From NCBI GenBank assembly GCA_947475525.1, contig CANJMI010000011.1:124001-188000 (forward strand): a DNA stretch of 64,000 nt. The letters run 5' to 3'. Position numbers and translations under genes: made by a program. Below the pieces are notes generated by a model. It saw nothing but the letters and a program-made list of their open reading frames with translations, searched no databases and was not told the origin of the DNA. Positions 43,511 through 46,913 of the stretch are shown in pieces (within the stretch, counting starts at the first letter, position 1; every line of letters starts with the position of its first letter). Source of the DNA: Polyangiaceae bacterium. Its GTDB lineage: Bacteria > Myxococcota_A > Polyangia > Polyangiales > Polyangiaceae.

Positions 43511-44293
43511 TCAGCCGCCGTTTTGCTTCGCGAGCGCTTCGAGACCTGAGTAATTACCCGAGTAGCCCATCTGCGTGTAGGTGACCTTCATCGTGCGCGG
43601 GTCGACGTAGTGCAGCATCGGGGTGCCCACGGAGTTCGTGTACGCGAGCGAGAAATTGGGGTCGCTCATCACGGAAACGTCGAGAAGGTTGTACTTGTCC
43701 TTCCACTCTTTCGTTCCGAGCAACGTCGGAGGTCCGTCGTTCGGCGCATCGATCATCAACGTCACCACGCGGATCCCCATCGGTTTCCACTTCGTCATCA
43801 AATTGGGAAGCGAACTCGCTTCCTGGGCGCAAGCGCCTCAGCCAAACTGCGACGAATCGAAGAGAATCGCGGTGATCCCCTTCGAGCCGTCGCAGTCGAG
43901 CAACTCCTCGATGCTGAGGCTGCCTTGCACCGTGCCGCCGGCCGGGTAGCCTTCCCACTTCAAGTTCGACGGGAGGATTTTTCCTTGGGCCACGCCGTAC
44001 GGACCGGCGGGGTAGACGCACGCCGCGCCTGTGCTCGAGCTTGCGGAGGCGGTGCTGTTCGATGACCCGCCCGTGCTCGCGGCAGTTGTCGTCGCGCCGG
44101 CCGAGCCGGTCGTGGCGCTCGAGGTTGAACCGACCGCGGCCGAGCCGGTCGTCGCGCTTGAGGTTGGACCGACCGCGCCGTCTTTGCCGCCGGTGCCCTC
44201 GACAAATTCGACGCCGTCTGCACCCGTTAACGAGTTGCACGCAACGAGCGCCGCGACGGCCACCCAGCGTACACAATGGTTCAACTCTCGCAT
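43511..44293 (-). CDS. Thioredoxin-like lipoprotein, probable selenoprotein (in-frame TGA = Sec152)
   Basis: The minus-strand frame from the ATG at 44293 to the stop at 43511 is interrupted only by TGA at 43838-43840. Read through, it gives 260 residues: a lipobox (LVAC, Cys19), a Ser/Thr/Ala/Gly linker containing a 13-residue tandem repeat (to about 92), then a thioredoxin-like domain. The TGA falls in ILFDSSQFG-U-GACAQEASSLPN, where thioredoxin-fold proteins have CxxC; the result is a UxxC redox motif (U152, C155) with the expected helix after it. The domain continues with MGIRVVTLMIDAP, and a GTPMLHYVD block matching the cis-Pro region (TP). Both halves show normal codon use. A SECIS-like hairpin follows the TGA. 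Without selenocysteine the product would stop before the second redox residue. A nonsense mutation or base error is the alternative. Confidence 0.82.
43806..43823 (-). promoter_or_regulatory. Candidate bacterial SECIS element
   Basis: In the mRNA a perfect 7-bp stem GGAAGCG/CGCUUCC carries the tetraloop AGUU. Its loop begins 22 bases after the UGA, inside the 16-37 base window of bacterial SECIS elements, and has a G in the first two loop positions, as SelB binding requires. A smaller hairpin (GGCG, loop CUUG, CGCC) lies directly after the UGA. The stem also encodes protein, so codon pressure could make part of it by chance. Confidence 0.65.
44100..44177. repeat. Tandem duplication of 39 bases inside the linker of the selenoprotein gene
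   Basis: Two adjacent copies (44100-44138 and 44139-44177) differ at three positions. Each adds 13 codons, encoding the GxTSSATTGSA unit of the lipoprotein linker. The length is in frame, so copy number can change without damage. Confidence 0.85.
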
Positions 44294-44338: not shown

Positions 44339-45184
44339 TCATCCCCAACGGCAACCACACCACGCTTCGCTGCGCCGCCAAAGGTCGGCCGCGAGGGCGG
44401 CGTCGTCGGCGAGTCGGCTCGGGCGCTTCGGTGCGGAGCGGTCGTAGTAGCGACCGGTCTCGCTCGCCAACCCGGGGTCCGTCGCGCAGTGCAGCGTCGT
44501 GCGGGCGCCTTCTTCGTTGGTGATCATGGCAAGCTTCATCAGTGCGCGGAATGGCCACGGCACGCGGCGCCAAACATCCGAGGCGACTACGCCGGGGTGC
44601 AGCGAATACGTTGTGATCCCGGTGCCTGCGAGCCGTCGGCTGAGCTCCGCCGCGAAGAGGACATTCGCGAGCTTGGAGACCCCGTACTCCGCAACGCCCG
44701 TGACGCTCGGCGTCGTCATCTTCACCGCGTCAAAATCGAGCTTCTTCGGTCGGTAGTGGGCGCGGCTCGAGACGACCACGATGCGCGCGGGCTGCGATTC
44801 GATGAGGCGCTCCCTGAGGAGGCATGTGAGGAGGAAGTGGCCAAGGTGGTTCGTTCCGAAATGAACCTCGAAGCCGTCGCGTGTCAGTCCGCGAGAGCCC
44901 GCGAGGCCTGCGTTGAGGATGAGCAGATCAAGGGGCTCCTTGCGCGCAAGAAACGCCTCGGCGCATTGGCGAACCGAGGCGAACTCACCGAGGTCGAGCG
45001 GCAGGAAGTCGGCCGTGCCCCCCGCTGCGCGAATCTCCTCGAGGACAGGGCGCGTGCGCTCCTCGGACCGTCCCGCCAGGATGAGCTTTGCACCACTGCG
45101 CGCGAGCTCAATCGCGGTGACTCGCCCGATGCCGGTGTTCGCACCCGTGATCAGGCACACTTTGTTCGCGACGTTCCAGCTCAT
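44339..45184 (-). CDS. Short-chain dehydrogenase/reductase
   Basis: 281 residues. Classical SDR layout resembling retinol dehydrogenase-like enzymes: cofactor motif TGANTGIG, NAGLAG, catalytic VVSSRAHY (Ser) and YGVSKLAN (YxxxK). The arginine at the end of the second strand (AGRSEER) suggests NADP(H). Substrate unknown. It lies 45 bases upstream of the selenoprotein gene on the same strand. Confidence 0.93.
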   Translation of the reverse strand: MSWNVANKVCLITGANTGIGRVTAIELARSGAKLILAGRSEERTRPVLEEIRAAGGTADFLPLDLGEFASVRQCAEAFLARKEPLDLLILNAGLAGSRGLTRDGFEVHFGTNHLGHFLLTCLLRERLIESQPARIVVVSSRAHYRPKKLDFDAVKMTTPSVTGVAEYGVSKLANVLFAAELSRRLAGTGITTYSLHPGVVASDVWRRVPWPFRALMKLAMITNEEGARTTLHCATDPGLASETGRYYDRSAPKRPSRLADDAALAADLWRRSEAWCGCRWG

Positions 45185-45279: not shown

Positions 45280-46806
45280 TCAGCGGGGAAGTCGAAACTT
45301 ACGCCCGGCCAAGTTGAACGCGACAGAGTGGACGGTAGCCGCCGTTTTCGGAACCAGCATCACGCCGCCGCTGAGATGCGAGTACGGGTAAAAGCGACCG
45401 ACGAGGTGCTGCTTGCCCGTCGTCGTGGTGACCTCGAGCGCGGTCGCTTCACCACTTGGGTTCGCGGAGTTTAGAAGAGGCTCGAGCCACTTGGTCGTAC
45501 CGTCTGCGGCGATGGCGATTCGATCGTAGAGGACGGGCGAGCCCTCGATCCACGCGGCGTTGTTGACGAGCTTGATGCGATTGAAAAGCTGCTTGAAGGT
45601 AAAATCGCTGACCCACGCGGGCTCGCAATAACTCATGAAGTCGGGCGCGTCGGGCGCGATGAGTTTCGGGGCTAGGAGATCGAATCCCCATGCGCCGATC
45701 GAGCCATCCGGGCGGGGAAAGAACGGGTCGACGCTTTGGCTCACGCCGCACGGAGCGTGAGGCCGTCCGTGTTGATGCCCGAGCTCGTGAGCAGCGGTTC
45801 CCGCGGATTCTTCGCCCGTAAATCCGATGCCGATCCCAGCTCGGGACATCGGATCGTTGGGTCCGGCGAGCAGCGAGAGCCCCGCGACGCAGCCCGAGCT
45901 GCAGAACGATCCAAACGAACCCGCCGCGTTGAAGAGACCGTAATAATACTCGTCGTTCGCGGCGCCGGACGTCTGCCGGTAATCGGTGATCGCGTTCAGC
46001 AAATCGTTCCAGCCGTCGCCGCCCGGATCCACCGCTTGGTTCCAGGTCACCGCCGGCTTCACGGTCACGGTGACGCTCGGTACCGGGTACAGCCGGAACA
46101 ACGCATCGCGATAACGATCGACTTGCTGCTGCGAGGTGTCGGGCAAGCGGTTCGAGCCGTCGGCGGCGTAAGCGACGGGCACGAGCACGACTTTCAACGT
46201 CGCGCCAACAGCCTGGATGGGCAGCGCCAAGAGGCCCGATGGCGGATAAGCCGCGGTCGTGTTCGTCCCACTCGACTGGGCCGCGGTCGTGAGGAGTTCG
46301 ACCCGCATGCTGGTCGCGGCGCCGATGCGCGCTCCCGGGATCGCAGCGTTTGCCGTGGTTTCGAGAGTCTGCTGGTCGGAGGAGCCCGCGAGTGTCGTCG
46401 GGACCTCGATAGGAGGGCCGTCGCCGAACGTGACGCGCAGCACGCCCGTGCTCGACGCTGACGCCTTGTAAAAAACGCGGAGGTACGCGTCGCGCCCCGC
46501 CACGATCGGGATGTCCGAGTCGAGCTCGTCGCCACCTTTCATTAGCGGCCGTTCGACGCCTTGGTAGAGTTTGATTTCGGTTACCGTGACGCCGTCGGCC
46601 GCGACGAGCTCGGATGTCCCGCCGCTACTCGAGCTTGCTGGGCCTGGACCAACGGAGGCGCTGCTTCCCGCTCCACTGCCGGTCATCGAGCCGGTGCCCC
46701 CGCTCTGCTCCGGGAGGAGCTCGATCCTGTCCGCGCCAGAGATCAGATTGCAAGCCGTTGTCGCCACTACCGCGAAGGCAAACGCCGATTGTCGCCAATC
46801 TCTCAC
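45280..46806 (-). CDS. Metzincin-like zinc metalloprotease lipoprotein
   Basis: 508 residues from the GTG at 46806, which yields a lipoprotein signal ending TTAC. The residues after the Cys (CNLISGADRIEL) repeat those of the selenoprotein lipoprotein (CNSLTGADGVEF). A Gly/Ser linker follows. The zinc site HELGHQHGRPH at 340-350 fits HExxHxxGxxH, and a Met-turn (MSYCEP) lies about 60 residues later, so it is a metzincin. N-terminal region is beta-rich (VTEIKLYQGVERPLM). Likely an outer-membrane or surface protease. An ATG-initiated longer start at 46857 seems less likely. Confidence 0.85.
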   Translation of the reverse strand: MRDWRQSAFAFAVVATTACNLISGADRIELLPEQSGGTGSMTGSGAGSSASVGPGPASSSSGGTSELVAADGVTVTEIKLYQGVERPLMKGGDELDSDIPIVAGRDAYLRVFYKASASSTGVLRVTFGDGPPIEVPTTLAGSSDQQTLETTANAAIPGARIGAATSMRVELLTTAAQSSGTNTTAAYPPSGLLALPIQAVGATLKVVLVPVAYAADGSNRLPDTSQQQVDRYRDALFRLYPVPSVTVTVKPAVTWNQAVDPGGDGWNDLLNAITDYRQTSGAANDEYYYGLFNAAGSFGSFCSSGCVAGLSLLAGPNDPMSRAGIGIGFTGEESAGTAAHELGHQHGRPHAPCGVSQSVDPFFPRPDGSIGAWGFDLLAPKLIAPDAPDFMSYCEPAWVSDFTFKQLFNRIKLVNNAAWIEGSPVLYDRIAIAADGTTKWLEPLLNSANPSGEATALEVTTTTGKQHLVGRFYPYSHLSGGVMLVPKTAATVHSVAFNLAGRKFRLPR

Positions 46807-46913
46807 GCCGGGAGAATACGGTTCTACGGCGTCTTCGCGACCCATAATTCGCGGCATCGCACCCGATTTTTGTCCGCGCTGGCGCCAGCCGCGGCCAGGT
46901 TTCGCGAGCCGTA

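Follow-up and report, generated by a model that had tools for sequence, protein, structure and literature searches.

A candidate lipid-anchored UxxC selenoprotein of the thioredoxin fold in a genome of the Polyangiales

Introduction

Thioredoxin-fold proteins of the ResA/TlpA/CcmG (DsbE) type are located in the cell envelope. In Streptococcus pneumoniae, the surface thioredoxin lipoproteins Etrx1 and Etrx2, for which no Sec was reported, are encoded together with CcdA and, in the case of Etrx1, also with MsrAB2 (PMC3914529). It was shown that Prx-like and Trx-like families with a UxxC motif are abundant in marine samples (PMC2398784). Moreover, Prx-like thiol:disulfide oxidoreductases (PF00578, UxxC) and thiol-disulfide isomerase-like UxxC proteins (cd02966) were catalogued as selenoproteins in 2026 (PMC13188914). 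The same catalogue describes the bSECIS by a loop of 3–9 nt, a stem of 4–16 bp and a G in the first two loop positions (PMC13188914), at 16–37 nt from the UGA and with an MFE of at most -7.5 (PMC13188914 Fig. 2).

Here we describe a gene of a Polyangiaceae bacterium, located on a stretch of 64,000 nucleotides (the window). Standard annotation would end such proteins at the UGA, in this case leaving a fragment of 151 residues. From the sequence data we estimate a probability of about 0.93 that the gene encodes a selenoprotein in which UGA-152 is read as Sec.

Reading frame and protein architecture

The frame running from 44293 to 43511 contains a single internal stop, a TGA in the context DSSQFG-U-GACAQEA (Table 1). 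Re-reading of the frame reproduced the coordinates, the residue number 152 and the TP motif of the initial annotation and adds the strand, which is minus. Translated from the ATG, upstream of which inspection of the sequence found no obvious Shine-Dalgarno motif, the protein starts with MRELNHCVRWVAVAALVAC-N. By inspection, the short signal peptide ends in a lipobox, WVAVAALVA-C19 (lipobox region of the 260-residue lipoprotein: MRELNHCVRWVAVAALVA-C19), which is conserved in most homologues. This lipobox points to lipid anchoring, and the same sequence evidence would fit the inner membrane, the periplasmic face or the cell surface; of the surface lipoprotein proposed initially, the lipoprotein part is retained, and a location at the surface would be one of these options. 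The window protein carries the conserved blocks YPxGPYG and DPRTMKV, and the TP at residues 224–225 is invariant in an alignment of 11 sequences.

Table 1. Predicted features of the selenoprotein locus, in window coordinates.
Feature	Position	Strand	Basis or remark
Predicted selenoprotein gene, 260-residue lipid-anchored thioredoxin-fold protein	43511..44293	-	frame, homologues, purifying selection before and after the UGA
Start ATG; terminal stop TGA	44293..44291; 43513..43511	-	frame reading
Predicted Sec codon TGA, residue 152, first of UxxC (U152-G-A-C155)	43838..43840	-	frame and homologue column
Signal peptide, residues 1-18, lipobox L-V-A-C	44240..44293	-	sequence; lipobox in most homologues
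Cys19, predicted lipidation site	codon 44239..44237	-	sequence
Low-complexity Ser/Thr/Ala/Gly linker, residues 20-91	44021..44236	-	sequence
Thioredoxin-fold domain, residues 92-260, ResA/TlpA-like, cis-Pro-type T224-P225	43514..44020	-	AlphaFold, ResA structure match, PF00578 in relatives
bSECIS-like hairpin GGAAGCG(AGUU)CGCUUCC, 7-bp stem, 4-nt loop	43806..43823	-	fold and published criteria
Short-chain dehydrogenase (SDR), upstream neighbour	44339..45184	-	order conserved in two congeners; genomic context
M66-like metallopeptidase lipoprotein, CNxxSGADxIE N-terminal motif	45280..46857	-	upstream in congener G159 too

Measured against the two nearest congeners, dN/dS for the codons past the UGA comes to 0.19 and 0.22, next to 0.18 and 0.22 upstream, and the substitutions cluster at third codon positions. 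GC3 is likewise nearly the same in the two parts (0.80 upstream versus 0.81 downstream). Translation and retention of the segment beyond the UGA are therefore very probable.

Selenocysteine machinery of the genome

The initial annotation had seen no Sec machinery in the window; the source genome (5.15 Mb, 59 contigs, 98.9% complete) contains all four components. A tRNA-Sec scores 71.6 bits (cut-off 47) and was assigned the anticodon tca by ARAGORN. At about 1.2 kb from it lies selB with 302.9 bits (cut-off 242), the SelB model match covering only residues 2–427 of 581 in a frame of 641 aa. Furthermore, selA (481.3 bits) and selD (320.6 bits) are present. SelD of this genome (L014, 2439..1390 on the minus strand of G000:C22) itself has an in-frame TGA, in LVLGGGUARK, which is the usual Sec form of the enzyme. 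Together, these genes indicate a complete Sec apparatus, and SelD makes at least one further predicted selenoprotein.

Exchange of Sec and Cys among homologues

The survey comprised 184 genomes of the order. In 54 of them selB exceeded the cut-off, 55 have a tRNA-Sec, and the domain was matched in 107. Among 54 homologues read, the codon aligned with the first active-site Cys is TGA in 19 and TGC or TGT in 35, whereas the second active-site Cys is invariant in 50 aligned homologues. In the order-wide search, the in-frame stops among the matches listed are all TGA, with no TAA or TAG. Because the TGA accounts for 19 of 54 codons, with Cys in all others, and no other in-frame stop is listed, its position at the Cys column is far beyond chance. 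The proposal that the TGA sits exactly at the first Cys of CxxC is thereby borne out, the column holding Sec or Cys only and not random residues.

The 19 TGA forms, that is the focal gene and 18 others from several families of the order, are spread over 13 genomes. All 13 have selB and 12 a detected tRNA-Sec, the remaining genome being 76% complete. As selB exceeds the cut-off in 47 of the 107 homologue-bearing genomes, its presence in 13 of 13 corresponds to P = 8e-6 with relatedness ignored; the compared genes are related, which makes the P values given here optimistic. On the maximum-likelihood tree, Sec and Cys interchanged approximately six times, at least three of these changes being forced by well-supported branches. 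One further TGA form (L153) belongs to another family of the class.

Relatives were named by an alignment-based scan of genome contigs, which found them in Polyangiaceae and other myxobacterial or deltaproteobacterial MAGs, whereas a scan with the single protein as query gave no match; tblastn against plasmids gave none either. The protein of isolate ZH-3nov15-113 is 81% identical and has the TGA, that of isolate K_DeepCast_35m is 74% identical and has Cys, and a relative from Minicystis rosea is also a Cys form. Two genomes of one genus encode three Sec paralogues each (G114: L021, L058, L059; G115: L057, L033, L061), two of the six, L033 and L061, being cut by contig ends. In a distantly related sister clade, made up of UPGC lipoproteins (L063–L069, families f3 and f5) mostly with SEF[FY]UPGCRNAARDLAAQG, all seven members read have the TGA, and the hairpin is a different one with a longer loop (CGTGATYT). 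A Cys homologue of 35% identity (L107) comes from a genome record outside the myxobacteria, Candidatus Hydrogenedens AG-422-L23. A TGA-bearing match in G079 (L152) was discarded as a selenoprotein because the codon is its terminal stop and the active site reads CTVC.

These data also bear on whether the TGA is simply a real stop, in which case the gene would encode a truncated 151-residue lipoprotein, be a pseudogene or contain a sequencing error. The codon does terminate elsewhere, as the same gene ends in TGA, and annotation that does not handle Sec would yield an ORF of 151 aa. A sequencing error, the check for which had been proposed together with the initial annotation, is excluded since congeneric and other genomes have the same TGA; the pseudogene was rejected for the same sharing among homologues and for the purifying selection past the UGA. 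The truncated product would lose the larger part of the fold together with the second Cys, and neither the recurrence of the TGA in 18 other genes nor the full Sec machinery would be expected, making a real stop very improbable next to the selenoprotein reading.

A bSECIS-like hairpin downstream of the UGA

The focal hairpin has G-U at loop positions 2–3, a distance of 21 nt from the UGA to the loop and a folding energy of -11.4 kcal/mol, and it lies within all of the published bSECIS limits (PMC13188914). An Rfam search of the region gave no match. The hairpin is better than approximately 94% of synonymous re-codings (P = 0.057); as for most genes this per-sequence test lacks power by itself, the comparative contrast between Sec and Cys genes was used instead. 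A fixed hairpin rule, set after the first folds were seen, holds for 17 of the 19 genes with TGA and for 2 of the 35 with Cys (Fisher P = 6e-10). The two TGA genes that the rule missed are both cut at contig ends and have a bulge in their hairpin. In the sister group the stem has compensatory changes, and the named pairing exceeded all slid controls in the cells paired and in covariation. The case for the hairpin is thus a comparative one.

One of the two Cys genes that satisfy the rule (L019, G159:C2) is the 74%-identical ortholog in a congener, which has TGT at the Sec codon and a nearly unchanged 7-bp SECIS-like hairpin, in a genome that retains a tRNA-Sec and two selB-like genes. This hairpin is likely a relic of a replacement of Sec by Cys. 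Such a pair of orthologs, one Sec and one Cys, at the same locus within a genus and with the hairpin still present in the Cys form, offers a natural experiment on keeping or dropping selenium.

The association of hairpin and codon also matters for the idea that the UGA is read through by a near-cognate tRNA or is reassigned to Trp. Such decoding would explain why the frame stays open before and after the TGA. However, the focal gene and several homologues terminate with TGA, the alternative at the column is always Cys and never Trp, and the hairpins track the TGA; the latter two points led us to reject UGA as Trp, and any such decoding has a negligible probability compared with insertion of Sec.

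Predicted fold and function

AlphaFold predicts a thioredoxin fold (pLDDT 93.4, pTM 0.87) with a TP of the cis-Pro type, in which the helix 77–96 begins at the UxxC pair (model residues 76 and 79). The closest solved structure is ResA (Z 16.6, 2.2 A over 134 residues), followed by other TlpA/DsbE-type proteins and by peroxiredoxins, and ResA also ranked first in the profile search. The best Pfam match of the window protein, PF00578 AhpC-TSA, reaches 19.6 bits, which is under the 26-bit cut-off, and the family is matched in 27 of 50 family members; among NCBIfam models, ResA included, none relevant matched the window protein. Because no curated family model was reached above its cut-off, the protein is described as ResA-like and not filed as ResA.

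Most likely, the protein serves in the envelope as a lipid-anchored disulfide reductase or exchange protein, and, given the selenoprotein reading, an oxidoreductase role is probable. The main functional rival is a peroxidase, that is a peroxiredoxin-like selenoprotein in which Sec would attack the peroxide and Cys155 would resolve. PF00578 as the best Pfam match, even though below the cut-off, would suit such an activity, as would the structural similarity to peroxiredoxins, whose Z of ~14–15 is slightly under that of ResA. Against this, the pair is of the CxxC type, ResA is best in profile and structure, and peroxiredoxin selenoproteins have TxxU (PMC13188914) where UxxC is found here, so that we consider a peroxidase rather unlikely.

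From the reading frame, the machinery, the Sec/Cys exchange, the hairpin, the selection and the predicted fold, all of them supported by sequence data, we infer the following course, including selenium insertion, lipidation, envelope position, direction of electron flow, reductant and substrate. SelD and SelA would make Sec-tRNA, and SelB with tRNA-Sec would decode UGA-152 as Sec, guided by the bSECIS with its loop 21 nt downstream. The protein would then be exported via the Sec translocon and lipidated on Cys19, so that a flexible linker would hold the thioredoxin-fold domain in the cell envelope. There, the pair U152-x-x-C155 would serve as a fast ResA/TlpA-type oxidoreductase of the dithiol/selenothiol kind, whose most likely task is to reduce disulfides or oxidised thiols in envelope proteins.

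Locus context and shared N-terminal motif

In the congener G159 the order of the locus is the same (metallopeptidase, SDR, redoxin, phosphotransferase). Among the neighbours examined, there is no gene for an electron donor, substrate or partner, and there are no cytochrome c maturation genes. The motif at the start of the linker, CNSLTGADGVEF, is common to other lipoproteins of the genome. In the approximate form C-N-x-[IL]-[ST]-G-A-[DS]-x-[IV], it follows the lipobox in the selenoprotein, in the paralogue of this genome with CxxC and in two metallopeptidase lipoproteins of the M66-like type, the sites being 44239-44204 (minus strand) and ~46752-46718 within 46857..45280 (minus strand) in the window, and L112, L114 and L075. 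A strict DNA pattern of the motif was found in 7 of 108 family genomes, from two genera, and in none of the reversed control. The shared motif may be a sorting or anchoring signal. As a tentative and rather doubtful extension, the genes might represent a Polyangiales-specific family of lipid-anchored UxxC selenoproteins, with up to three Sec paralogues per genome, that forms an undescribed envelope selenium redox system tied by the motif to the M66-like metallopeptidase lipoproteins.

Comparison with known systems

A literature search with little coverage of subscription papers found no published myxobacterial selenoprotein, which is weak evidence, and the words "lipoprotein" and "Myxococc" are absent from the catalogue paper (PMC13188914). 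Going by the counts of selB and tRNA-Sec, myxobacteria of this order use selenocysteine widely, and the selenium literature searched does not mention them; they seem to place Sec in exported lipid-anchored redoxins, sometimes with several paralogues per genome. None of the 50 family members matched an NCBIfam selenoprotein model, which leaves them outside the selenoprotein families known there.

The bSECIS of E. coli fdhF has the loop GC-AGGUCU-GC. Its small apical loop with G-U is also found in the focal hairpin, and the sister-group loops, GC-AGGUA-GC, resemble it; the focal loop differs in being AGUU and in having its G-U about 3 nt further from the UGA. With ResA/TlpA/CcmG (DsbE), the window protein shares the thioredoxin fold with a CxxC-type pair, the best structure and profile matches being ResA (1st9, 2f9s), whereas ResA and its relatives use Cys and are only ~15% identical. 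With Etrx1 and Etrx2 it shares a lipid-anchored thioredoxin fold, and Etrx2 (4hqz) is among the structure matches with a Z of 14.0; the CcdA and MsrAB2 partners that sit with Etrx1/Etrx2 are not found beside the window gene among the neighbours examined.

The closest resemblance is to the UxxC selenoproteins of the catalogue (PMC13188914), with which it shares the thioredoxin-fold class, a single Sec as the first residue of CxxC, Cys homologues and a bSECIS just downstream. The catalogued PF00578 members differ in that the window protein lies below the PF00578 cut-off. The initial annotation rightly called the gene a notable find, yet overrated it, because UxxC thioredoxin-fold selenoproteins are already a well-populated kind. 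By description, the lipobox, the long low-complexity linker and the blocks YPxGPYG and DPRTMKV set the window protein apart from the catalogued members, so that its distinct architecture extends a known kind of selenoprotein by a lipid-anchored branch.
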